Shown: positions 5,630 through 19,869 of the stretch, piece by piece
Numbering within the stretch: position 1 is the stretch's first letter
Layout of the letters: every line of letters begins with the position of its first letter
Source of the DNA: a virus
Reading direction: 5' to 3' (one strand)
DNA length: 23,245 bases
IMG/VR virus record: IMGVR_UViG_3300030331_000355
Span: 1-23,245 of that record
Program-made: the position numbers and the translations under genes
Notes under the pieces: generated by a model
Told to the model about the DNA's origin: nothing
The model's input: only the letters and a program-made list of their open reading frames with translations
Database searches by the model: none

Positions 5630-6019
5630 CTACATAACTCTTTGAATACCAGTTGGATCAGCTATAACAGCTTCTATAGAATCGTCGTTCATCAAACGAT
5701 ACTCTAATCCATTGACTGTAAATCTTGTACCTGTATTAGCACGGAACATTACATAGTCCCCTTGCTTACACCAAGCTCCTGTCGGAAATCTATCTTTATC
5801 CGCATAAGCTTGTTCGCCCATATCCATAACTAACCCCATTATAGACATTATATGATCGTGTCTTTTAGCTGTGTCTGTTTTTAGTATGTTACTACCCTCA
5901 TATGTATCTTTTTGTTGGGGTAGTGCTACTAAAACACGATATCCTACAGGTTTAGGGAGTTGTGCATCTATTTCTTTATCAGTTAGCACTGGCTGATCTA
6001 TTGCTGGTTCAGTCATCAT
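5630..6019 (-). CDS. GroES-like co-chaperonin (phage cpn10)
   Basis: About 129 residues matching the cpn10 fold order. A first strand PVGYRVLVAL (about 25-34) is followed by a mobile-loop-like stretch YEGSNILKTDTAKRHD, then IMGLVMDMGE (the GxVxxxG strand), an insertion QAYADKDRFPTGA, GDYVMF (88-93, the vkvGDkVlF strand), TGTRFTVNGLEYRL (the cpn10 centre) and DDSIEAVI near the end (the DIlAvi motif). Phage cpn10 proteins such as T4 gp31 replace host GroES to fold the large capsid protein in GroEL; the same role is inferred from its place beside scaffold and capsid genes. The frame opens at a GTG (6022) followed by ATG ATG; I chose the first ATG. It overlaps the upstream gene by 11 nt. It is longer than bacterial GroES (about 97 aa). 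Confidence 0.8.
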   Translation of the reverse strand: MMTEPAIDQPVLTDKEIDAQLPKPVGYRVLVALPQQKDTYEGSNILKTDTAKRHDHIMSIMGLVMDMGEQAYADKDRFPTGAWCKQGDYVMFRANTGTRFTVNGLEYRLMNDDSIEAVIADPTGIQRVM

Positions 6020-6206
6020 CACTTTCCATTTGGTTACGCGAGAGGTCTTCTATTAATTGTTTACTAACCTCGAGACCCCGTATCAAGCCAGTAACTTCCT
6101 TATATTGGGCGTAGTCCTTTGGACCCCCTGATGTAAGAAATTGCATTGAAGATAACTTCTGTTCTTCTATTTGTTGTATAAGCACGTCAAAGACGGTTTT
6201 AGCCAT
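6009..6206 (-). CDS. Small conserved phage protein between portal and cpn10, 65 aa
   Basis: Starts MAKTVFDVLIQQIEEQKLSS and contains FLTSGGPKDYAQYKEVTGLI, then a helical acidic C-terminus. This is a pattern I recall from cyanophage and pelagiphage head modules, always as a small unknown. It is predicted mostly helical with no membrane segment or metal motif. AAAGGA precedes the ATG by about 7 nt. The frame ends 11-14 nt inside the start of the cpn10 gene, so the two are translationally linked. It could be a small head-assembly or portal accessory protein, but function is unknown. Confidence 0.75.
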   Translation of the reverse strand: MAKTVFDVLIQQIEEQKLSSMQFLTSGGPKDYAQYKEVTGLIRGLEVSKQLIEDLSRNQMESDDD

Positions 6207-8627: not shown

Positions 8628-10180
8628 TAGTAATATCCACTTCCTCTACGTTTAAAGTATTGAGTCTCCTCTGGTTCGTCACTAGGTAGTCTTATAAAAC
8701 CACCTTGTCTAAATCGCATTAATGCCATAACAGTAGAGTCAACCAAGTCATCATGACTCATGAATGGAAATCCTGCAATCTCTTCTATAACTTCTTCCGC
8801 CCATCTTGTTTCTGGAACCCAACACATTCCTGATGCTACTATATCAGACACAGAATTTAATCTGGCTAATTTATCACCTGACCCTCTGTGTGGTGTGTAT
8901 TCCTGTACTGGTAATCCCATACGCCTCATTTCTTGATAAAGTGCAGTACCTGCACTTTTCTTTTCAACTATAAAAGCATCTGGCTCCCATTCTGCATATT
9001 CTTCCATAGCCAGTTCTTTAAGTTCTGGGAACTCCATACGCCTTTTTATACTATTTAGCAATATAATATTATACGCGTCAACCTCTTCGTTAAGAAAAAC
9101 TCCCCATGTAGTTATTGCCGTATAGTCAGCTCTGTTGTGTTTTTCTGCTGCAGCGTCCAGTGACATGATAACATATTCACATGGTGGGGGCTGATCTTGT
9201 GTCCATCTTTGCCACCATTCTCTCTTTACAAGTGCGGCTTCTTCAGCGGTTGGTTCTTGCTGATACTGTGCGTTCCACTGAAATACAGGCATAGACGCTT
9301 TGGTACGCAATAATGCGTCTAAATTAAAAAACTCAGGCCACAAAGGTTTTTGTTCTGATTTCTCAGTTTCTTTATTTATAATATCTAATATAGCAGGAAA
9401 CTCTACAACTTCATACTGGTCAGCTTTCTCATTCTGCCCCATATCTTTAGTCACACGCCCCGTCAGATCATCCATGTGCCAACGTGTTTGTATAATAGCC
9501 ACACGACCCCCTGGCATTAGTCGGGTTCGTGCACCATATGTAAACCACTCGTATGCTTTTTCAAATACTCCGAAGTTACCATTGATAACATCTTGCTCAG
9601 AGTGGGGATCATCAACAAGAAGTAAATCAGCACCACGACCAGCTATAGATGAGCCAATACCACACGCATAATACTCTCCGCCCGAATTAGTATTCCATCT
9701 TCCCGCTGATTTAGAGTCTGCTGCAAGCTGTACAGTGGGGAATATAGCCTGATATTCGTCTGTAGATATTAAATTACGCACTTTTCTACCAAAATCTACA
9801 GCTAAATCTGTAGTATGAGATACCATCATCACTTTTTTGTTAGGATTTCTACCTAAAAACCATGCAGGAAAAAATATAGACACTAACTGGGACTTACCAT
9901 GACGTGGTGGTATGTTTACACATATTCTATCTTTTTTACCTTGTTCTATATCCATTAACATGTTTGCCAGCATCCTATGATGCTTACCCACAATATAATC
10001 TGGCTGCATATGTTTACAAAATGCTATAAGATCGTCGTATATAGTCTTGATTTTCTTACGTTTTCCTAGTTCATCAACTAATTTATCTATTTCCATGACT
10101 TCTTCAGTCGTATATTTGTCTAAATTAGCCAACATTACGCCAATTTCGTCTTCAGAAAAGTCGATAATAGCTTCACTCAT
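8627..10180 (-). CDS. terL: Terminase large subunit (packaging ATPase and nuclease)
   Basis: 517 residues with both terminase domains. In the N-terminal ATPase, Walker A is PPRHGKS at 91-97, followed by an adenine-side MMVSHTTDLA, and Walker B is LLLVDD at 186-191; TRWHMDDLTG follows around 232-241. In the C-terminal RNase H-like nuclease, the acidic sites are D342 (SLDAA), E406 (VEKKSAG) and D477/D478 (SHDDLVDS). It cuts concatemeric DNA and drives it through the portal encoded next. The length is normal for the family and all key residues are present. It overlaps the upstream gene by 8 nt. There is no strong ribosome-binding site, so coupling to the upstream gene is likely. Confidence 0.96.
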   Translation of the reverse strand: MSEAIIDFSEDEIGVMLANLDKYTTEEVMEIDKLVDELGKRKKIKTIYDDLIAFCKHMQPDYIVGKHHRMLANMLMDIEQGKKDRICVNIPPRHGKSQLVSIFFPAWFLGRNPNKKVMMVSHTTDLAVDFGRKVRNLISTDEYQAIFPTVQLAADSKSAGRWNTNSGGEYYACGIGSSIAGRGADLLLVDDPHSEQDVINGNFGVFEKAYEWFTYGARTRLMPGGRVAIIQTRWHMDDLTGRVTKDMGQNEKADQYEVVEFPAILDIINKETEKSEQKPLWPEFFNLDALLRTKASMPVFQWNAQYQQEPTAEEAALVKREWWQRWTQDQPPPCEYVIMSLDAAAEKHNRADYTAITTWGVFLNEEVDAYNIILLNSIKRRMEFPELKELAMEEYAEWEPDAFIVEKKSAGTALYQEMRRMGLPVQEYTPHRGSGDKLARLNSVSDIVASGMCWVPETRWAEEVIEEIAGFPFMSHDDLVDSTVMALMRFRQGGFIRLPSDEPEETQYFKRRGSGYY

Positions 10181-10814
10181 CTTTAGTTTTCCAAAAATAC
10201 TCGTCAGTATCCCCTAATCGGGTCATATTTCCGTTTTCTACCTGATATTCTATGGTACTAACCTTAAAATCAGGGTCTAATGGCTTCTGTGGGGTCAAAG
10301 AATTGTCATAAACTCTCATTCTGTTGTTCGGATAAAGGCAAAACTGCCCATTTTCTAGTTTTAACAGGTTACTAGACTTATGTTCTTCAGGAGTTTCGCT
10401 TGTGCTATAATCAATTCCGTTAGCATCTGCATGATAATTGTCTATTGTGCATATATACGAACCTGTCAACGTCCCATAATCTCTACTTAATATCTGAAAA
10501 TCCATTGATCCAATAAACTGTTTAGTAATAGATACCACACCATAATCCATACAGTTCCAAAACTGTAGATTTGGTAAACTAAGATCAGGATCAGGTGTTT
10601 TAGGTCTGGATAAAAACGCACTTATAGGTAATTTATCAAATAGTGCTCCGTATTGCGGTAGATATGTCTCAAAATAAAACGCTCTACCAGGGATAGACTT
10701 ACACGAAACCCATACACCCTCTACAAACTCTCCATGTCCATCTTTTAAATCTCTCAAATATTCTCTTCTAACCCATACTTTTTCTGCTGGCATATTACAA
10801 ATCAATTCACTCAT
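10173..10814 (-). CDS. Conserved unknown protein between the terminase genes, 213 aa
   Basis: I do not recognise a domain. The protein is aromatic-rich, with a probable beta-structured body: GRAFYFETYLPQYGALFDKL around residues 43-62, PDPDLSLPNLQFWNCMDYGV around 74-93, and YGTLTGSYICTIDNYHAD further on. The phrase about completing lines such as LENGQFCLYPNNRMRVYD looks like a conserved core. There is no membrane segment, signal peptide or nucleotide-binding motif. Unknowns of similar appearance lie next to terL in marine phage genomes as I recall them. It overlaps both neighbours by 8 nt, so all three genes are one translational unit. It may assist packaging. Confidence 0.7.
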   Translation of the reverse strand: MSELICNMPAEKVWVRREYLRDLKDGHGEFVEGVWVSCKSIPGRAFYFETYLPQYGALFDKLPISAFLSRPKTPDPDLSLPNLQFWNCMDYGVVSITKQFIGSMDFQILSRDYGTLTGSYICTIDNYHADANGIDYSTSETPEEHKSSNLLKLENGQFCLYPNNRMRVYDNSLTPQKPLDPDFKVSTIEYQVENGNMTRLGDTDEYFWKTKDE

Positions 10815-11591: not shown

Positions 11592-11614
11592 GGGGTCATG
11601 GGGGTGGGGTGGGG
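11592..11614 (+). other. Predicted G-quadruplex motif
   Basis: Four G runs are separated by short loops: GGGG, TCAT, GGGGG, T, GGGG, T, GGGG. This satisfies the usual G4 pattern with runs of four or more. It lies about 20 bp from the first operator-like palindrome and on the strand that would be non-template for the early arm. Whether it folds is untested. Confidence 0.65.
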
Positions 11615-11634
11615 TTTAGCATATAGTGATTTTT

Positions 11635-11651
11635 TGTAGTGACTCACTACA
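11635..11651. promoter_or_regulatory. 17-bp operator-like palindrome, copy 1
   Basis: TGTAGTGACTCACTACA, a perfect inverted repeat of 8 bp around a central C. It starts 31 bp (about three helical turns) before copy 2 and lies upstream of the early promoter. Confidence 0.85.
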
Positions 11652-11665
11652 GTTTTATGTTGTTT

Positions 11666-11682
11666 TGTAGTGACTCACTACA
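11666..11682. promoter_or_regulatory. 17-bp operator-like palindrome, copy 2
   Basis: An exact copy of the 17-bp palindrome. It ends about 28 bp upstream of the -35 element of the promoter at 11711-11739, so a bound protein could repress or activate that promoter, perhaps with copy 1. Confidence 0.85.
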
Positions 11683-11710
11683 ATATTTATTAAATAATTG
11701 TAGAACATGC

Positions 11711-11739
11711 CTAACAATAACTAAATAAATTGATATAAT
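11711..11739 (+). promoter_or_regulatory. Sigma70-type extended -10 promoter for the first early gene
   Basis: A perfect TATAAT (11734-11739) is preceded by TGA, giving the extended -10 form TGN-TATAAT. The -35 is weak (CTAACA, 11711-11716, 4 of 6) at 17 bp. The predicted transcript starts near 11746, leaving a leader of about 60 nt before the gene at 11807. Confidence 0.65.
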
Positions 11740-11806
11740 GAATTCATCAAAGACACAAAAAACAATTCCGTTATAACGTCTTTGTGTATTAATGGAGAAC
11801 GGCTCA

Positions 11807-12406
11807 ATGCCTAACATTAAAAACAGTTTGCAAGTATCTGCTAAACTTGCTGATCAACTAGTTAAAGATAATTCAGCTCATGCAAAGTCTGCACGGTCTA
11901 CACAAAAGACCGTTGATATGTTGATTGCTGACGGCTTTAAATGGTTCAACATGGTTTCACCTACTACAAAAGGTGAAGTTATTGGAGTTGGTGAAGTTAA
12001 AAAGAATGAAAATTCTTTTGTCAATCCAATGTCCGCGGAAGAGTTCTTTAAGATGAAGTATAAGATAGCCTATGGTTTAAATCCTAGGTATGCTTATACA
12101 TTGGATAGATCTGCCAAAACATTGACTGAAAGTCAAAAGCTGATGAAAGCAAAGCTTAATAATAATGTCAGCGGCAGATTATCTGATTATAAAAAGCAGT
12201 TAATCAATCGTGAGAACTTGTTAACAGGCTCTAATGGTAGGCAAGAGAAAAAGACATTCAAGCAGTCTTTTGTTCTTGCCAACAACAAGATGATTGAAAA
12301 GTTAAAAGGTATGGAAGATGCTACCTTAGATACTTCTGCAATCATCAAGTTGTTATCACAAATTAATGTGATTGTTGAAACTAATTCAGCAAAACAAGAT
12401 CACTAA
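11807..12406 (+). CDS. Early phage protein of unknown function, 199 aa
   Basis: I do not recognise a family. The protein is basic and mostly helical: ADQLVKDNSAHAKSARSTQK in the N-terminal third, a conserved-looking middle FFKMKYKIAYGLNPRYAYTL, and LSDYKKQLINRENLLTG later. There is no membrane segment, cysteine motif or clear helix-turn-helix. An in-frame ATG exists at 11792, but GGAG at 11794-11797 lies 9 nt before the ATG at 11807, so I chose the latter. It is the first gene after the early promoter and two operator-like palindromes, and is followed by a terminator, so it is a separately expressed early gene. This makes it a reasonable regulator candidate, but there is no direct evidence. 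Confidence 0.8.
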   Translation: MPNIKNSLQVSAKLADQLVKDNSAHAKSARSTQKTVDMLIADGFKWFNMVSPTTKGEVIGVGEVKKNENSFVNPMSAEEFFKMKYKIAYGLNPRYAYTLDRSAKTLTESQKLMKAKLNNNVSGRLSDYKKQLINRENLLTGSNGRQEKKTFKQSFVLANNKMIEKLKGMEDATLDTSAIIKLLSQINVIVETNSAKQDH

Positions 12407-12416
12407 AACATCTTTT

Positions 12417-12448
12417 AGCCTAGCATAATAGTATGCTAGGCTATTTTC
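12417..12448 (+). terminator. Terminator hairpin after the first early gene
   Basis: A perfect 11-bp stem AGCCTAGCATA (12417-12427) and TATGCTAGGCT (12432-12442) with a 4-nt loop is followed by ATTTTC. It lies 11 nt after the stop codon. The T run is short, so it may be a partial terminator or an mRNA-stabilising hairpin. Confidence 0.7.
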
Positions 12449-12461
12449 ATTGGAGGAAAAA

Positions 12462-12620
12462 ATGAAACAATTAAAAGACATTCCACAACTACAAAAGAAA
12501 AATAAATCACATATGAATATTATTTGGTTTATAAATAAATTTGGATATATAACTTTTATTTATTTTATATTCGCATTGGTTACATCAATGTTTATATTAT
12601 TTCTTTTAATAATAATCTAA
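12462..12620 (+). CDS. Small single-pass membrane protein, 52 aa
   Basis: A short frame with a strong signal: TTGGAGG about 7 nt before the ATG. The first 26 residues or so are hydrophilic and basic (MKQLKDIPQLQKKNKSHMN). Residues 28-52 are a continuous hydrophobic helix (FGYITFIYFIFALV and on to FILFLLIII), ending at the C-terminus. This fits a cytoplasmic N-terminus with one membrane span. It lies between two terminator hairpins in the early region. It could alter the host membrane, exclude other phages or be holin-like, but a single span with no lysis genes nearby does not decide this. No family is recognised. Confidence 0.75.
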   Translation: MKQLKDIPQLQKKNKSHMNIIWFINKFGYITFIYFIFALVTSMFILFLLIII

Positions 12621-12625
12621 TATCA

Positions 12626-12648
12626 GGGAGCTTCGGCTCCCTTTTTTT
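12626..12648 (+). terminator. Rho-independent terminator with TTCG loop
   Basis: GGGAGC, loop TTCG, GCTCCC, then seven T (12642-12648), starting 6 nt after the stop of the small membrane protein gene. The UUCG tetraloop and T run make a textbook intrinsic terminator, which isolates the first two early genes from the repeat region. Confidence 0.93.
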
Positions 12649-12652
12649 GTGC

Positions 12653-12690
12653 CTATGATACCAGTGCTTAATGTAGCGTTGAGCCTAACG
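12653..12690 (+). repeat. Long direct repeat, copy A (about 38 bp)
   Basis: Matches 12749-12787 with about three substitutions and one single-base indel. Both copies include CTTAATGTAGCGTTGAG. The copies lie 96 bp apart and flank the palindrome at 12732. Confidence 0.8.
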
Positions 12691-12731
12691 TGATATCACA
12701 TACTGAATTATAACGTATTGTCCTGCAATTT

Positions 12732-12748
12732 TGTAGTGACTCACTACA
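12732..12748. promoter_or_regulatory. 17-bp operator-like palindrome, copy 3
   Basis: An exact copy with central C. It abuts copy B of the long direct repeat, which begins at the next base. Confidence 0.8.
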
Positions 12749-12787
12749 CTATGAAACCAGTTCTTAATGTAGCGTTGAGTCCTAATG
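12749..12787 (+). repeat. Long direct repeat, copy B (about 39 bp)
   Basis: The second copy of the repeat at 12653-12690. It begins directly after the palindrome at 12732-12748 and ends inside the first AATGTTCCGT word. Confidence 0.8.
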
Positions 12788-12885: not shown

Positions 12886-12902
12886 TGTAGTGAGTCACTA
12901 CA
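12886..12902. promoter_or_regulatory. 17-bp operator-like palindrome, copy 4 (central G)
   Basis: TGTAGTGAGTCACTACA, the same arms with G at the centre, that is, the opposite orientation if the centre matters. It lies within the repeat tract. Confidence 0.8.
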
Positions 12903-13288: not shown

Positions 13289-13305
13289 TGTAGTGACTCA
13301 CTACA
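13289..13305. promoter_or_regulatory. 17-bp operator-like palindrome, copy 5
   Basis: An exact copy in the transcribed leader, about 50 bp after the predicted start and 7 nt before the AGGAG of the gene at 13326. A bound protein here would act on elongating polymerase, or the RNA form could affect ribosome access. Confidence 0.85.
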
Positions 13306-13325: not shown

Positions 13326-13523
13326 ATGACTATGAGAAAACGCTCTAAGATCAAGAAGTTCTACAAGCGACTACCTAAAGGCACTACTTCCAACTGGGAG
13401 TGGCGTGGTAATGCGTTTGTGGAAGTATTCACTATTCACGGGCATCGTTACGTAAAGCATCACACGCCTGACACGCTCGACGCAAAATCAACAATAACAT
13501 CTAACGCTAAGTATCACAGATAG
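13326..13523 (+). CDS. Small basic protein, first gene of the main early operon, 65 aa
   Basis: A basic protein (MRKRSKIKKFYKRLPKGTTS at the N-terminus) followed by an aromatic segment NWEWRGNAFVEVFTIHGHRY that looks like a small beta-hairpin, and a polar tail. I do not recognise it. A longer frame opens at 13221, but AGGAG at 13313-13317 lies 8 nt before the ATG at 13326, and the upstream part would read through the palindrome, so I chose 13326. The size, charge and position first after the promoter fit a DNA-binding regulator, but no helix-turn-helix is evident. Confidence 0.75.
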   Translation: MTMRKRSKIKKFYKRLPKGTTSNWEWRGNAFVEVFTIHGHRYVKHHTPDTLDAKSTITSNAKYHR

Positions 13524-13535
13524 GAGGATATCAAC

Positions 13536-14444
13536 ATGAATACAACAATTAAAAATGGTAGTGACTCACTACAAATTTCTACACCATCTATATCTAGTTC
13601 GGCAACACTTGTCGAGTTAGGCATCTCAAAGTGGACTGGTCGTAAGCTAGACAAACGAGCATCGGCAGATGTCGCATCTGCAAACTATGCAAAAACTGGT
13701 GTCGCTAATGTGCACAAGAAATTGCTTGGTGACTGTGCAGAACTCAAAGCGATCGACACTATTGTCGGTGTAGCACGTACTGCACATTACAGTATGACAA
13801 TGCCGTGGTCAGATACTGGTTTGCGATTGCTCACAACAAAAGCATACTTCAAGTATCACGAGACCATGACCGAGATCCAGGCATCTTTCGACGATTGTGT
13901 TAACACGTTCTTGCAAGCGTATGATTGGGAGATTACACAAGCACAAGCCAAGCTAGGCGATCTGTTCAATCGTAATGACTATCCGACTACCGATAGTCTA
14001 TCGAGAAAGTTTGGTTTCAGATTGTCGTACATGCCATTACCCGAGGCAGGCGACTTTCGTTTGGACATCAACAACGAGGCACAAGCCGAGATGAAGAGCC
14101 ATTACGAAACGTACTACACGACGCAGTTGAACAATGCCATGAACGACATATGGCAACGTGCTTTCAAGTGTTTGTCTAACATGTCCGAACGATTGGACTA
14201 TGCAAGCCATGAGAGCAAGAAAGTATTTCGTGACACACTTGTTACGAATGTGTTGGATATTGTTGACTTACTATCTGTCTGCAATGTTACCAACGATAGT
14301 CAGATGGAGGCTATGCGAATGAAACTCGAAGACACACTTCAAGGTGTTACACCCGATGCACTACGTGAGGATGAGTTCCTACGTGCAGAGACTAAGAAGT
14401 CTGTTGACGAAGTTCTTAAATCATTACCATCATTAGATATGTAA
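13536..14444 (+). CDS. DUF3150-like protein of the MoxR-VWA module, 302 aa
   Basis: The segment LVELGISKWTGRKLDKRAS near residues 26-44 and the order of motifs (LLTTKAYFKYHETMTEIQAS, FLQAYDWEITQAQAKLGDLF, NDYPTTDSLSRKFGFRLSYM, PLPEAGDFRLDI) match, from memory, the DUF3150 family, found beside MoxR ATPases in phages and bacteria. The function is unknown; it may be the partner or substrate adaptor of the ATPase encoded next. The C-terminal half is helical. AGGAGG lies 8 nt before the ATG. Codons 8-13 (GSDSLQ) consist of a copy of the 17-bp palindrome with its first base changed. The next good start is far inside, so the palindrome truly lies in the coding region. Confidence 0.75.
   Translation: MNTTIKNGSDSLQISTPSISSSATLVELGISKWTGRKLDKRASADVASANYAKTGVANVHKKLLGDCAELKAIDTIVGVARTAHYSMTMPWSDTGLRLLTTKAYFKYHETMTEIQASFDDCVNTFLQAYDWEITQAQAKLGDLFNRNDYPTTDSLSRKFGFRLSYMPLPEAGDFRLDINNEAQAEMKSHYETYYTTQLNNAMNDIWQRAFKCLSNMSERLDYASHESKKVFRDTLVTNVLDIVDLLSVCNVTNDSQMEAMRMKLEDTLQGVTPDALREDEFLRAETKKSVDEVLKSLPSLDM
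13557..13573. promoter_or_regulatory. 17-bp palindrome, copy 6, inside a coding region
   Basis: GGTAGTGACTCACTACA: the outermost T is G, otherwise identical. It lies 21 nt after the ATG of the DUF3150-like gene and is translated as GSDSLQ. Confidence 0.8.
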
Positions 14445-14449
14445 CCAAC

Positions 14450-14466
14450 TGTAGTGACTCACTACA
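14450..14466. promoter_or_regulatory. 17-bp operator-like palindrome, copy 7
   Basis: An exact copy in the 45-bp gap between the DUF3150-like and MoxR genes. It ends 8 nt before AGGAGG of the MoxR gene. There is no room for a promoter between it and the gene. Confidence 0.85.
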
Positions 14467-14489
14467 AAATTTAAAAGGAGGCTTATGCC

Positions 14490-15587
14490 ATGACTAATCA
14501 AGCAATTCAAATGTACTCGCTATCTATTGACGAGACTGTTAACGCCATCGAGACGGCAGGAGAAATGAGGACTATCCTTGTGCAAGGTCACATGGGTACT
14601 GGTAAATCATCTATCTTGTCCATACTTGCTGAGAAGTATCCGACCTATGTGCCGTGCTACTTTGATTGTACCACCAAGGACTTGGGCGATATCACGATAC
14701 CTAACGTGTCCAAGCTAGACAATGGCACTGGGTTTGTGTCGTATCTCACTAACGAAGAACTTGGTGTGCATCACGACAAACCAATCATACTCATGATCGA
14801 CGAGTATGGTAAGGCTAACCCAGCCGTCAAGAATGCAATGCTACGACTTATGCTCGAGCGTAAGATTGGTAGCTACAAACTACACAAGGACAGTTTGGTA
14901 TTTGCTACAACTAATCTTGGAGCAGAGGGCGTTGGCGATCTCATACCACCTCACGGACGTAATCGTATTGTCATGAGTGTGATGAAGAAACCAACTAATC
15001 TCGAGTTCATATCCTATGGTATCAACAAGGAACTTGACCCTACACTACTTGGTTGGTGTAAGGAGAACCCACAGTTGTTCTATTCTTTCGAGGATGTTAA
15101 GAACCCCGATGACAACCCATACATCTATCACCCCAAGCAACAACGTACGTCTTTTGTGACACCACGTTCTCTTGAGGCATGTAGTGTGTGGTTGGAGCGA
15201 CGTGACAAACTCAATGACACTACACTTACTGCTATGCTCATGGGCACGATCGGTGAACGTGGTGCTATGGATTTGATGGCATTTGTCAAACTTGCTGACC
15301 AACTACCATCTTTCGAGAGTATCAAGAAAGACCCAAAGAATGCCAAAGTACCCACGTCTGCATCTGCCGTGTGTATGGTTGTGTATCGCACACTAGCAAC
15401 TTTGGAGAAAGACTGGATTGATGCTTGGATGGACTACATGGTACGGTTGGACAAAGAGGCACAAGGCATGTTTGCCAATGGTGTACGTGACCCCAAGTAT
15501 GCCAAGCAGTCTATGGTCATGACCAACAAGAAGTTCACCAAGTGGGCAATGGACAACAACTATATGTTCGCATCGGACAAGAAGTAA
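14490..15587 (+). CDS. MoxR-type AAA+ ATPase, 365 aa
   Basis: An AAA+ ATPase with Walker A GHMGTGKS (33-40), Walker B LMIDE (101-105), sensor-1 ATTN (139-142) and arginines at R157/R159 in PPHGRNRI. The layout, with FDCTTKDLGDITIPN before Walker B, matches MoxR-like ATPases, which work with VWA-domain partners to remodel or load cofactors into target proteins; the VWA partner is encoded next. AGGAGG lies 9 nt before the ATG; an ATG 5 nt upstream (14485) is out of frame and stops at once. The C-terminal 150 residues are helical. The phage role is unknown: host-enzyme remodelling, virion maturation or replication are all possible. Confidence 0.85.
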   Translation: MTNQAIQMYSLSIDETVNAIETAGEMRTILVQGHMGTGKSSILSILAEKYPTYVPCYFDCTTKDLGDITIPNVSKLDNGTGFVSYLTNEELGVHHDKPIILMIDEYGKANPAVKNAMLRLMLERKIGSYKLHKDSLVFATTNLGAEGVGDLIPPHGRNRIVMSVMKKPTNLEFISYGINKELDPTLLGWCKENPQLFYSFEDVKNPDDNPYIYHPKQQRTSFVTPRSLEACSVWLERRDKLNDTTLTAMLMGTIGERGAMDLMAFVKLADQLPSFESIKKDPKNAKVPTSASAVCMVVYRTLATLEKDWIDAWMDYMVRLDKEAQGMFANGVRDPKYAKQSMVMTNKKFTKWAMDNNYMFASDKK

Positions 15588-15594
15588 CAATTAT

Positions 15595-15611
15595 TGTAGT
15601 GACTCACTACA
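15595..15611. promoter_or_regulatory. 17-bp operator-like palindrome, copy 8
   Basis: An exact copy in the 37-bp gap between the MoxR and VWA genes, ending at the first base of the AGAAAGG ribosome-binding site. Confidence 0.85.
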
Positions 15612-15624
15612 GAAAGGTAAAACA

Positions 15625-16893
15625 ATGTTTATGACAAGTGAACAGTTGACGGAAGAGCAACGTGTGCAGAAAGCCGTCATCTCAATTATGCAGAACCCAA
15701 AGTATGTCGCACTCGCAGGCATACTTATGTTGGGTGAGCGTGAAGTGGTAGACGCAGATAAATGGCAGTATGGTCTGCCTACTGCGTGTACCAATGGCAG
15801 AGACGAGTGGTATCATCGTGATTTCATCGCCAAGCTAAATGATGCAGAGTTACGGTTTCTCATTCTACATGAGTGCTACCACAAGTTGTACAAACACCTT
15901 ATCACGTGGGCATGGATACAGAAAGAGGACCCACAAGAGGCAAACGTATGCACGGACTTGGTCATCAACTGTAAGATACGTGATGACAACAAGGACGGCT
16001 TTGCTACAATGACTGGCGAACTTGCTAGTGGTTGGTATGACCCACAGTATCGTGGCATGGACACGGCTCAGATATACCAACTACGTAAGCAAGACAAACA
16101 GAAACAAGGTGGTGGTCAAGGTCAAGGCGATGGTCAAGGTAATGGTCAGAGCCAAGGCACTGGTATCGGTAGTGACTCACTACAAAAAGCTATCGACAAC
16201 CACGACTGGGAGGGGGCAAAGGAGTTGTCCCCACAAGAGAAGAACGAGTTGGCACGTGACATTGACGAGGCAATACGTCAGGGGGCACTGATTGCAGGCA
16301 AGACTGGTTCGGGTGGCGATCGTGACTTGACCGATCTGCTCAAACCACAGATTGACTGGCGAGAAGTATTGCGTGAGTTTATCACGACGACGTGTACTGG
16401 CAACGATTACTCTACGTGGAAACGACCTAACAGACGTTATGTATCAGCAGGTGTGTATCTACCGAGTGGCATATCCGAGAGGGTGGGCGAACTTGTTATT
16501 GCTATCGACACAAGTGGTTCGATTGGTAGTCCCGAGTTGGCTAGGTTTCTTACCGAGGTCAAATCGATATGCGACACAGTGCACCCCGAGAAAGTACGAC
16601 TACTATACTGGGACACACAAGTGTGTGGTGACGAGAAGTACGAGATGCACGAACTCGATGACTTGGTCAAATCTACCAAACCCAAGGGTGGTGGTGGCAC
16701 TATGATCGAATGTGTCCCCGAGTACATTACCAACGAGGGCATCAAGCCTCAAGCATGTATTGTCTTGACCGACGGCTATCTTGGTAGCAGTTGGGGTAAG
16801 TGGTCGTGTCCATTGTTGTGGTGCATTATCGACAACGAGTCAGCCGTACCCGACGTGGGTACACACATTCATGTGAAATCAAGGGAGATATAA
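15625..16893 (+). CDS. DUF2201-type protein: HExxH metallopeptidase-like domain plus VWA domain, 422 aa
   Basis: Two domains. The N-terminal part has FLILHECYHKLYKHL, a zinc-type HExxH at residues 82-86 (HECYH), as in DUF2201_N putative metallopeptidases. A Gln/Gly-rich linker spans about 160-182. The C-terminal VWA-like domain has a full MIDAS start DTSGS at 295-299 (AIDTSGSIG), GGGGT near 355-359 and LTDG at 381-384. Such proteins pair with MoxR ATPases, here encoded just upstream with DUF3150. AGAAAGG lies about 7 nt before the ATG; a second ATG two codons in is also possible. The linker contains a copy of the 17-bp palindrome translated as GSDSLQ (182-187). The substrate and proteolytic activity are unproven. 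Confidence 0.85.
   Translation: MFMTSEQLTEEQRVQKAVISIMQNPKYVALAGILMLGEREVVDADKWQYGLPTACTNGRDEWYHRDFIAKLNDAELRFLILHECYHKLYKHLITWAWIQKEDPQEANVCTDLVINCKIRDDNKDGFATMTGELASGWYDPQYRGMDTAQIYQLRKQDKQKQGGGQGQGDGQGNGQSQGTGIGSDSLQKAIDNHDWEGAKELSPQEKNELARDIDEAIRQGALIAGKTGSGGDRDLTDLLKPQIDWREVLREFITTTCTGNDYSTWKRPNRRYVSAGVYLPSGISERVGELVIAIDTSGSIGSPELARFLTEVKSICDTVHPEKVRLLYWDTQVCGDEKYEMHELDDLVKSTKPKGGGGTMIECVPEYITNEGIKPQACIVLTDGYLGSSWGKWSCPLLWCIIDNESAVPDVGTHIHVKSREI
16168..16184. promoter_or_regulatory. 17-bp palindrome, copy 9, inside the VWA gene
   Basis: GGTAGTGACTCACTACA, with the same first-base change as copy 6. It lies in the region encoding the flexible Gln/Gly linker between the two domains, far from any gene start. 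Confidence 0.8.
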
Positions 16894-17077: not shown

Positions 17078-17609
17078 ATCAGACGGCACTATTGTCGTTG
17101 CGTTCGAGTCCTTGCAAGATATGTATGAGGTACTAGCCGTATATCGGCTAGACCCTCGTGTGCAGGAACTCAATCCGTTTCCTAAAGACATCGATGATGA
17201 TGGTGACAACGATGGCAACTGGAGGTTTCACGACTGGAACTTAGATGAGAATACAGTATGTTTTATTATGCGTCTAGATTACTTTGATTGGAAGTTCTAC
17301 CCCGAGTATACAGACATACAAGCATACTTACACATAGCTACAGTGTGTAAGCAGTTTGCCAGCGAGCGAGAAAATTTCTCCTACGCATATAGATTTGTGC
17401 GTGGGGGCGAAGAACATGACGATACCGAAGAAGAATGTTATGGGAGCGACACCCCTCTAAGTCAATCGATGGTGGAGAACCTAGAACAAGAAGTCGGTGT
17501 TCGCATGGTGTGGGAGTTGTACGATGATCTCAACTGCAACACGACACGACAAGACTATTATTTTAACCAAAACTGTAGTGATTCACTACAAAAAACAAAG
17601 GAGAAGTAA
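17067..17609 (+). CDS. Acidic phage protein with MGYRSD start, 180 aa
   Basis: Begins MGYRSDGTIVVAFES, a start I recall from a family of uncharacterised phage proteins (MGYRSDV type). The body is acidic, with DIDDDGDNDGNW at about 41-52, and aromatic (FIMRLDYFDWKFYPEYTD), suggesting an alpha/beta fold. It has no catalytic motif that I can name. It overlaps the upstream gene by 11 nt. The C-terminal tail CSDSLQKTKEK (170-180) is encoded by palindrome copy 10 and the ribosome-binding site of the next gene, so the tail may be an add-on rather than part of the fold. Confidence 0.72.
   Translation: MGYRSDGTIVVAFESLQDMYEVLAVYRLDPRVQELNPFPKDIDDDGDNDGNWRFHDWNLDENTVCFIMRLDYFDWKFYPEYTDIQAYLHIATVCKQFASERENFSYAYRFVRGGEEHDDTEEECYGSDTPLSQSMVENLEQEVGVRMVWELYDDLNCNTTRQDYYFNQNCSDSLQKTKEK
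17574..17590. promoter_or_regulatory. 17-bp palindrome, copy 10 (central T)
   Basis: TGTAGTGATTCACTACA: both arms are intact and the centre is T. It lies in the 3' end of the gene at 17067 (read as CSDSLQ) and ends 6 nt before the AAAGGAG of the gene at 17611. Confidence 0.85.
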
Positions 17610-17610
17610 C

Positions 17611-18666
17611 ATGTCAGTATATGATATGCCAAGGCTAGAGACTTTCGGTGCAGTAGCCACGCACTACGAAATGATTGACCCAGTTGTCAGCAGACGACAT
17701 ACGTTGGAAGATGACATACGACCCCTGGGCGACAGACGACGTAAGTGGGAACGTGTTAAGAAGTTCTCAGATAATTGCTATGCTCTTTACGATGGCGAGA
17801 TAGGGGACAACGTGCAGTACAACGATTGGCACGGTGCTAGTAATCTTGTGCCCGATGATGCACACAAAGCACTCGCACCTATCTTGTGGACATTGCAAAG
17901 TGATGGCACACAGATACTACGTGTACGTAATGGTTCGGGTAGTGGTGCTCATACTGGTAGGTATCAGTTCTTAGATCGAGCATTGCCTTTGGGATTCGAG
18001 GTTATCGTTGACAATGGTAAGCAGTTCGTTCGTTACAATGGTGTCAAATACTTTCTACCAAAGAGTGACTTTCATTCGTGGGGGTCTAGGAGAAAGGACA
18101 AGCATAACCAAAAAGACGATAAGAAATATATTGAGTTCCAACGTGGACCCGATGATAGGCATTGGAGTATCAAGACAAACTCGTTTGTGTATGTGCCACC
18201 ACGTAATCTGGTTGACAAGGAACGCAAGAAAAAGTTCAAGCCTGCTATGGACTCTTATTATTCTTGGTTGCTTATCATGGCTCCCATGTTCCGATCACAA
18301 CTCGAACACGTGCCTTTCTCGTATGGTGGTGCTAGCAACGATAGGTATACAGAAAATTACAATCTTGCTAGGAACAAACGTACGGAGTTGTTCGAGTATG
18401 CACGTGAAAACAAGTGGGTGTCTGCTGATACGCAGATATGGAATTTCAGTTTCGCACCCGAACATGCACTCGAGGTCATGGAAGACGAGGAACACCCAAT
18501 GCGTATGCACATGGCATGGGGTTTACTGCATGAGTCTTGCTTGTTCGACGAACACGAGTCAGAACGTAAGAAGTTCAGAAGTAAATACAATCGTTGGATC
18601 AACAAACTCTGTGGGTTCAACAAAACAATCGACAGTAAAGTCGTACACAAAACGGAGGTAAAGTAA
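17611..18666 (+). CDS. Orphan early-operon protein, 351 aa
   Basis: I do not recognise a family. The N-terminal third is charged and basic (RRHTLEDDIRPLGDRRRKWE). The middle has FSDNCYALYDGEIGDNVQYN, a Gly/Ser turn RNGSGSGAHTGRYQF and VKYFLPKSDFHSWGSRRKDK. The C-terminal part is helical and Trp-rich, ending in NRWINKLCGFNKTID. No P-loop or metal motif is clear. The frame is open from 17497, but AAAGGAG at 17597-17603 lies 7 nt before the ATG at 17611, and the upstream part overlaps the previous gene, so I chose 17611. Its stop overlaps the next start as TAATG. It is part of a co-transcribed orphan block after the MoxR-VWA genes. Confidence 0.8.
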   Translation: MSVYDMPRLETFGAVATHYEMIDPVVSRRHTLEDDIRPLGDRRRKWERVKKFSDNCYALYDGEIGDNVQYNDWHGASNLVPDDAHKALAPILWTLQSDGTQILRVRNGSGSGAHTGRYQFLDRALPLGFEVIVDNGKQFVRYNGVKYFLPKSDFHSWGSRRKDKHNQKDDKKYIEFQRGPDDRHWSIKTNSFVYVPPRNLVDKERKKKFKPAMDSYYSWLLIMAPMFRSQLEHVPFSYGGASNDRYTENYNLARNKRTELFEYARENKWVSADTQIWNFSFAPEHALEVMEDEEHPMRMHMAWGLLHESCLFDEHESERKKFRSKYNRWINKLCGFNKTIDSKVVHKTEVK

Positions 18667-19568
18667 TGTCAATAAATGAGGGATACATGAGAGTAGTCGA
18701 TATTAATGCAAAGGCTGATCTCGAGAAACAACAAGAGGCTAGGGACAAACTAGCCTCCAACTCACACTTGCAGGACTACATGAAAGCGTTACGTGTAGCG
18801 TTTCGTGGTATCATGTTTACACCACACCCATTTGATGTAAGGAGAGTATGGGTACATATGCCCAAAGACCCTTTCTGTTTGGGTTGGATTGGTTATGGTG
18901 ATTTTCAAACCACTGTTAGTGCAGATAAATCTAGCTATGTTGTGTACTCAAAGAACATAGCTAACTGGAAATATGGTGACTACAATGACCAATACCACAT
19001 GGCTATGTCGGTCAATCTCAATACTGCCGTTCGTAATGCTAAGAAATATTTACGCCCACTATCGACTAGTGACATGGCATTAGAAAAGTATGACGAGATG
19101 ATTACGCACTCTAACAAGTCCAAAGACAAAGCAAGCAATGATGCGTACAATGCTCGTGGTGATATGTTGCGTCACAGTGAAACTAAACCAAATGCACTTG
19201 TCGAATACATGCGTACACTTGTTAACACGGGTCATGAGTTTACCGACAAAGAGTTGGAGGGCACGTTACTCAATTACTTCAAGCTAGAAAAGGAGTCGAC
19301 AGAGTTAAAGCACAAGGTAATCAAGACAGTCTTTGTGCGTGTGCATGAGCGATTCGGGAAACAAGTCTTTGATGTTGCAACTGTCGTAAAAGACGGATAC
19401 AGAAACAAGACAGAATCTGTTGTTGCATATAGCAAAGATGATTTACCCGAAGACATAATGGGTAAGATTTCTGCTCTTAGCATGGTCGAGAACGGGCACT
19501 GGGTTGACGACGTGGGGTATCGTGTTGATGCTACATTGTTCTACGTTGTTCTGGCAGCCAATGAGTAA
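18666..19568 (+). CDS. Orphan early-operon protein, 300 aa
   Basis: An unrecognised protein. The N-terminus is helical (NAKADLEKQQEARDKLASNS). A conserved-looking part VWVHMPKDPFCLGWIGYGDF lies around residues 61-80, followed by SSYVVYSKNIANWKYGDYND. A helical, charged middle (LRPLSTSDMALEKYDEMITH) leads to a beta-rich C-terminus (VFRVHERFGKQVF-type region; VDDVGYRVDATLFYVVLAAN). No catalytic or membrane motif is seen. The ATG overlaps the upstream stop (TAATG), with GGAGG about 6 nt before it. The next gene starts 8 nt before its stop. It belongs to the same operon block as the orphan at 17611 and may act with it. Confidence 0.78.
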   Translation: MSINEGYMRVVDINAKADLEKQQEARDKLASNSHLQDYMKALRVAFRGIMFTPHPFDVRRVWVHMPKDPFCLGWIGYGDFQTTVSADKSSYVVYSKNIANWKYGDYNDQYHMAMSVNLNTAVRNAKKYLRPLSTSDMALEKYDEMITHSNKSKDKASNDAYNARGDMLRHSETKPNALVEYMRTLVNTGHEFTDKELEGTLLNYFKLEKESTELKHKVIKTVFVRVHERFGKQVFDVATVVKDGYRNKTESVVAYSKDDLPEDIMGKISALSMVENGHWVDDVGYRVDATLFYVVLAANE

Positions 19569-19812: not shown

Positions 19813-19869
19813 ATTTTGTAGTGAGTCACTACAAGATTGGGGAGTTAAATCTCCCCACTACTTGCCGTT
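19801..19869 (+). ncRNA. Predicted three-way-junction RNA structure at the end of the orphan block
   Basis: AACGGCAAGTAG (19801-19812) is perfectly complementary to CTACTTGCCGTT (19858-19869), a 12-bp closing stem. Inside it lie two further hairpins: palindrome copy 11 (19817-19833) and TGGGGAG-TTAAAT-CTCCCCA (19838-19857). Only 4-nt linkers separate the elements, and none lies between the last hairpin and the closing stem. A run of seven T follows at 19878-19884. It may be a terminator, an RNA processing or stability element, or a leader control element for the gene at 19896. Whether it is a separate RNA is not known. Confidence 0.55.
19817..19833. promoter_or_regulatory. 17-bp operator-like palindrome, copy 11 (central G)
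   Basis: TGTAGTGAGTCACTACA, arms intact with G at the centre as in copy 4. It is the last copy seen and forms one arm of the three-way junction. Confidence 0.85.

Follow-up and report, generated by a model that had tools for sequence, protein, structure and literature searches.

Several systems resembling the one considered here have been described. In phage N4 a MoxR-like ATPase and its partner are encoded by gp24 and gp25, which are among the 14 core genes of the N4-like phages, are transcribed as middle genes, and are listed as unknown and as a 'vWFA domain' protein (PMC4193335). Jumbo phages carry a pair made up of MoxR and a metallopeptidase-vWA protein, for which a role in virion assembly has been proposed (Iyer et al. 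2021, PMC7824862). In plasmid pCAR1 ORF100-103 are reported to be conserved in IncH, IncT, SXT and R391 elements (PMC2642839), and MoxR-vWA ternary conflict systems (VMAP, iSTAND) form a further group (PMC7159879, PMC12839542). Here we analyze a locus of three genes encoding a DUF3150-like protein, a MoxR-type AAA+ ATPase and a von Willebrand factor A (VWA) protein. It lies between positions 13,536 and 16,893 of the IMG/VR virus record IMGVR_UViG_3300030331_000355, a 23 kb fragment (23,245 nucleotides, termed the window) of an uncultured, mostly marine phage.

The locus can be compared with each of these systems. As in the N4 pair, part of the Schitoviridae core, a phage-borne gene for a MoxR-like ATPase is followed by one for a DUF2201_N/DUF2201 protein, and in both the window protein and gp25 an N-terminal DUF2201_N domain with an HExxH motif is fused to a DUF2201 VWA domain. 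The two ATPases are about 19% identical. In contrast to the window, no DUF3150 is detected in N4, and the N4 pair are middle genes. The jumbo phage pair has the same two-protein architecture with the metallopeptidase N-terminal to the vWA, but the available portion of its description names no third subunit. In pCAR1 the MoxR, DUF3150 and VWA genes of the ORF100-103 region lie in one cluster, and the DUF3150 protein matches the Pfam model with 307.6 bits; the VWA partner, however, is annotated as NorD-like and has no DUF2201 match. A profile of the window type barely detects the pCAR1 DUF3150, and a profile-profile comparison was insignificant; homology between the two is only suggested. The ternary conflict systems likewise have three components, one of which is a peptidase partner, while the third is variable. 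They differ in that the third component here is DUF3150 with the peptidase N-terminal to the vWA, and are found mainly on the chromosomes of multicellular bacteria, whereas the window type occurs on phages and plasmids. A preliminary description of the window had presented the locus as a phage-borne module, and this is confirmed, although the pair itself was already known from N4 and the jumbo phages. What is new is the DUF3150 protein as a third subunit, and the cassette that the three genes form across different elements.

The three genes and their motifs

The DUF3150-like protein (302 amino acids, 13536..14444), the ATPase (365 amino acids, 14490..15587) and the VWA protein (422 amino acids, 15625..16893) are encoded by adjacent intact open reading frames (ORFs) on the plus strand. 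Family assignments and alignments bear out this arrangement and the conserved motifs that had been noted. All structure predictions were made on single chains.

The DUF3150-like protein is the third subunit of the cassette, and is the proposed adaptor. It scores 24.7 bits against PF11348, with a Pfam cut-off of 24.9; the cut-off is passed by four of nine close relatives, and there is no match in loci L092, L181 and L089. The AlphaFold2 model is mostly helical, with a predicted local distance difference test (pLDDT) score of 71 and a predicted template modeling score of 0.44, and residues 1-21 lie below a pLDDT of 50. In a fold search no PDB entry was matched at E ≤ 0.001. VIA-align comparisons with Z scores up to 9.5 were discounted, as generic helical bundles aligned to a model of moderate confidence.

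The ATPase matches AAA_5 in Pfam and phrog_1297 ('ATPase', 159.5 bits) in PHROGs. It contains Walker A (G33HMGTGKS40), Walker B (D104E105), sensor-1 (N142), arginine finger (R159) and sensor-2 (R226) motifs, and G36, G38, K39, D104, N142, R159 and R226 are invariant in an alignment of phage and plasmid homologues. The Walker, sensor and arginine finger residues are kept in comparison with the plasmid and N4 homologues; the few exceptions to the pattern are Walker A variants in other phages (SPGMGKS in N4). By profile comparison the closest solved relatives are the AAA domains of midasin (E = 7e-37), with CobS far weaker (3e-5). This counts against an auxiliary metabolic role of the kind suggested for viral cobST pairs (PMC8651126), in which a CobST-like pair would recruit host CobN as a cobaltochelatase. 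For the present genes such a role is very improbable, as the VWA partner is a DUF2201 protein with a peptidase-like domain and no CobT_C rather than CobT, and CobN was not found in nine large relatives.

The VWA protein matches DUF2201_N (PF13203) with 88.1 bits and DUF2201 (PF09967) with 62.8 bits. The metallopeptidase-like domain carries H82ECYH86 and H91, and the metal ion-dependent adhesion site (MIDAS) of the VWA-like domain comprises D295TSGS299, T359 and D383. The predicted VWA domain matches the fold of VWF A2 (Z = 12.6, root mean square deviation 2.6 over 137 residues), and the low-complexity linker of residues 162-192 has a pLDDT under 50. In PHROGs the protein matches phrog_1314, labeled 'HNH endonuclease'. 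This is probably a misannotation, because the profile spans a metallopeptidase-VWA protein. The same label recurs for this family across many annotated phage records.

The MIDAS DxSxS motif is present in 119/119 distinct relatives of the VWA protein, and HExxH in 111/119. The eight losses (about 7%) include an insertion (HEDEGH) in a clade of the window group, EExxH in L186 and loss in a Paraburkholderia plasmid copy. The carriers of the insertion are the VWA genes of L151, L153, L157, L158, L160 and L164, whose clade has retained the trio in other respects. Judged from these alignments, the ATPase and the MIDAS are universal among the relatives and the peptidase motif is nearly so. The catalytic motifs are thus retained, not lost, in most relatives, which supports the view in the preliminary description of a conserved AAA+/VWA module with an apparently important target. 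Its statement that these motifs are intact holds for the ATPase and MIDAS, and for HExxH with the stated losses.

A strict cassette carried by mobile elements

DUF3150-MoxR-VWA is a strict cassette. A scan of IMG/VR with the window MoxR protein gave 345 relatives, 80 of which were kept, and the complete trio is present in the same order in 76 of these 80 window-group contigs; the remaining four are cut by contig ends. Identity to the window proteins is 72-99% for MoxR, 50-95% for DUF3150 and 50-93% for the VWA protein.

The cassette is carried by this phage group, by a cyanophage and other phages, by plasmids and by chromosomal islands. Mixed-alignment scans of genome and viral contigs found 18 further loci, with the trio complete in 15 and three cut by contig ends. 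The genes are ordered MoxR-DUF3150-VWA on the plasmids from Simplicispira, Rhodovastum and Paraburkholderia, and in the Paraburkholderia plasmid type IV secretion system genes directly follow the trio. DUF3150 matches occur in 44 plasmid records, against three annotated phage records; homologues of the VWA protein are present in 761 annotated phage records. The PF11348 model is unfit for such surveys, because it gave no match in any of four cassette-bearing genomes. A literature search for DUF3150 found no open-access paper. Among 398 Pseudomonadota genomes searched, the cassette was absent from the 397 other than the query genome. In composition it is close to certain that the trio is a portable cassette of mobile elements, near-absent from ordinary chromosomes. 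On trees in which the window clade occupies a long branch, the states of trio and pair are clustered, with 2 changes on the VWA tree and 3 on the MoxR tree, against 8.7 and 7.2 when shuffled. This is compatible with few origins.

In an all-against-all comparison of 25 loci, the only families common across element types were the trio proteins and their antisense frames. The neighbors vary: RecT and a toprim primase in L179 (Dechloromonas), a ParB helix-turn-helix protein in L181 (Bartonella), and DUF4942 in L192. The presence of RecT, primase and ParB genes, with that of DNA polymerase A (PolA) and a nuclease in the window, could indicate that the trio remodels a complex belonging to the element itself, be it for replication, recombination or transcription, and expression of the N4 pair among the middle genes would fit such a role. 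We consider this unlikely, given that the neighbors differ from element to element with no replication gene common to all, and that the sister phages considered below replicate without the trio.

The function of the cassette

We suggest that the trio encodes a machine acting early, for which DUF3150 serves as adaptor and by which a host protein is unfolded or cleaved. We give this reading a probability of roughly 0.4, and the host-target part of it is a guess. A host protein is favored over a virion protein because the cassette is the only thing that phages, conjugative plasmids and islands share. The target would most likely be a conserved host protein that either hinders incoming DNA or has to be converted for it, such as a replication, nucleoid, transcription or defense factor. 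A wider version is more doubtful. On that account the trio would be a general remodeling machine for host takeover or counter-defense in phages, conjugative plasmids and integrated elements, with DUF3150 recruiting the host protein and the motor unfolding it or feeding it to the peptidase domain upon entry of foreign DNA.

The composition of such a machine is observed, while each step of its mechanism is modeled on characterized MoxR-VWA machines. In the cryo-electron microscopy structure of NorQD a finger of the VWA protein enters the AAA+ pore, and the linker is twisted by the motor (PMC13036017). By analogy with NorQD and midasin, the ATPase would form a hexamer, with the VWA domain docked upon it by way of its MIDAS and of an element inside the pore. 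ATP hydrolysis might then pull or twist the flexible linker of residues 162-192 that joins the peptidase-like domain to the VWA domain, while DUF3150 as the proposed adaptor would bring the substrate. The outcome would be a target protein that is unfolded, and perhaps cleaved where HExxH is intact, early in infection or in plasmid establishment.

One alternative is that proposed for the jumbo phage pair by Iyer et al. (2021), whereby the proteins would act in virion assembly and in peptidolytic processing of structural proteins. This can be examined in three complete sister phages, HTVC027P, HTVC023P and DSL-LC04. They share with the window the major capsid protein (65-66% identity), the large terminase subunit TerL (47-48%) and the portal (38-40%), together with a GroES-like protein and three further head-region proteins. 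None of the three has a match to any trio profile, and the VWA alignment likewise found nothing when run against their whole records. Moreover the trio resides on chromosomal islands and on plasmids with type IV secretion system genes, and in the window it belongs to an early operon that runs away from the late genes. The N4 pair, as middle genes, also speak against head assembly. Because plasmids carry the trio and sisters with homologous heads lack it, head assembly seems unlikely as the general role of the cassette, and we regard the virion assembly and processing proposal as a whole as unlikely also. It is probable that the cassette serves mobile DNA generally, rather than building the head of the window phage.

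Several observations nevertheless weigh against an early machine directed at a host protein. The MoxR homologue of phage PA5oct is annotated with electrospray ionization tandem mass spectrometry, which suggests an association with the virion. In S-TIM54 a virion structural protein is encoded two genes after the pair, and the gp24/gp25 homologues of RPP1 have genes for virion proteins nearby (PMC4193335); all three points favor virion assembly. Pelagibacter is the host of two of the three complete sisters that lack the trio, so that these hosts may simply not have the target. Because HExxH is lost in 8/119 VWA relatives, peptidase catalysis is apparently not strictly required and proteolysis not universal. 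The proteins might also act in tail assembly.

Another explanation is that the trio is itself a MoxR-vWA ternary conflict system, shielding the element or host from competitors, with the peptidase as effector and DUF3150 as sensor. The three-part logic of a MoxR protein, a vWA-peptidase fusion and a variable third component does match, as does carriage by mobile elements. We nonetheless think it quite unlikely. Conflict systems are usually patchy, yet nearly all members of this phage group have the trio, the pair belongs to the core genes of N4-like phages, and the effector domain shows no turnover. Family matches in PADLOC were weak and unconvincing, and VMAP and iSTAND were not matched in Pfam or PADLOC scans, in which no dedicated profiles were used.

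The preliminary description had placed the target in either the host or the virion. For the host-directed machine that we prefer, the host is the most likely location; carriage on plasmids and the sisters without the trio leave virion assembly unlikely as a general answer. The working hypothesis therefore shifts from virion assembly to something that all invading DNA needs, because the cassette is common to phages, plasmids and islands, and sisters with homologous heads live without it. N4 in E. coli and pCAR1 in Pseudomonas provide tractable systems for it.

Palindromic sites in the early region

The least expected result is a genome-specific array of palindromes. In the window the palindrome TGTAGTGAnTCACTACA (core TAGTGAnTCACTA) is present in 11 copies between 11.6 and 19.8 kb. 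When up to 2 mismatches are allowed, TAGTGACTCACTA gives 22 strand-matches, corresponding to 11 sites, far above the 0.86 expected. Two tandem copies (11637..11680, +) stand where the rightward early operon begins, followed by 12734..12746 (+), 12888..12900 (-, with the central base reversed) and 13291..13303 (+), which precedes an ORF of 65 amino acids (13326-13523). Four sites are associated with the trio: 13559..13571 (+) within the DUF3150 gene (SDSLQ, codons 8-12) in its low-confidence N-terminus; 14452..14464 (+), 5' of MoxR; 15597..15609 (+), 5' of the VWA gene; and 16170..16182 (+) within the VWA gene (SDSLQ, codons 182-186) in the low-complexity linker. The intragenic copies fall in segments of low model confidence that are probably disordered. 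The last two are 17576..17588 (+), 5' of orf18k, and 19819..19831 (-, central base reversed), 3' of orf19k. The trio genes had been described as each headed by or containing the palindrome. Sites are indeed found at all three, but they are not specific to the trio, since the array spans the early region, and therefore indicate only probable co-regulation of the trio with other early genes.

Most phages of the group (L009-L088, L103-L177) have a palindrome of their own at early gene starts, uniform within a genome and differing between genomes; no array was seen in L060, L066, L067 and L068. At least 16 types vary in half-site and spacing. The commonest is GTTAGTGnnnCACTAAC, and others include GTTAGTCnnnGACTAAC, GTTAGTCCnnGGACTAAC, GTTAGGGAnTCCCTAAC, GTTAGGGAATTCCCTAAC, TTTACGGAATTCCGTAAA, GTTATCCAnTGGATAAC and TGTATACATATGTATACA. 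Such palindromes were never repeated in order-2 Markov copies. The positions are conserved: the 70 nucleotides 5' of MoxR contain a palindrome in 58/66 loci, the surroundings of the DUF3150 start in 53/59, the stretch before orf18k in 24/30 and that before the VWA gene in 28/53.

The window and L010 are 93.5% identical up to 11604 and about 89% from 12752, and the 1.1 kb between is unalignable (window 11604-12752, L010 5018-6291). This segment holds the tandem palindromes and the first early gene of the window, orf204 (11792..12406, +); L010 has a different first gene. Downstream the L010 palindromes are of another type with conserved flanks, so that the type and the first early gene have changed together. 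L013 (5204-11078) is a mosaic, with palindromes of the window type left of MoxR and of the L010 type from MoxR rightwards, which implies recombination within or just after DUF3150. Because the copies are many, are genome-specific, change in concert and sit at gene starts, they look like operators of a sequence-specific regulator. The best candidate for that regulator is orf204, by virtue of its replacement together with the palindrome type in L010. Its family occupies the position of the first early gene in 104 loci with a labeled palindrome type. When orf204 and DUF3150 were compared for how well their trees track the palindrome type, 17 and 20 changes were required, a weak difference. With their kept positions, the 16 or more natural operator types make a data set on the co-change of regulator and operator.

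We also considered the palindrome as an RNA hairpin, and rejected this: by a rough count 39 sites with one mismatch comprise 35 non-wobble transversions against just 4 G-T pairs, a pattern unlike that expected if an RNA stem were maintained. Nor is the palindrome part of the cassette, as arrays are lacking from the plasmid cassettes and most of those in other phages, and present in Pag-Yong1 and L195. Because no array accompanies the trio on plasmids, array and trio are independent features that occur together in these phages. Pag-Yong1 (L089, 3524-27674) has 15 copies of GGTTCAnnnTGAACC, many about 20 nucleotides before start codons; a similar array was not found in HTVC027P, HTVC023P or DSL-LC04. 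The arrays resemble the stoperators of cluster A mycobacteriophages (PMC6550527, PMC9283540), where one short site is present in many copies in the genome and its type varies between relatives. Unlike the stoperators, the site in the window is symmetric, being a palindrome, and its copies cluster at the starts of early genes; its regulator is a candidate, and no tyrosine integrase was found in nine relatives of 48-68 kb.

Genome organization and neighboring genes

The rightward early genes of the window comprise the trio, the nuclease and PolA, the term early being read off position and gene content. The late genes (TerL, portal, head protein and the GroES-like protein) lie on the minus strand and run leftward. 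The closest terminases among annotated phages, at 41-48% identity, are those of the Pelagibacter phages HTVC027P and HTVC023P, phage DSL-LC04 and the Planktothrix phage Pag-Yong1.

In many contigs of the group two fast-evolving genes lie 3' of the trio, orf18k (17611..18666, +) and then orf19k (18666..19568, +). We compared them with the genes after the VWA gene in Pag-Yong1, one of which is annotated AcrVA2, and found no match. On the opposite strand, the GroES-like protein is encoded among the head genes at 5630-6022 (-). The gene beside TerL (10173-10814, -) has a strong match to phrog_3704, and resembles DNA of a 2-oxoglutarate-Fe(II) oxygenase region in a Synechococcus phage.

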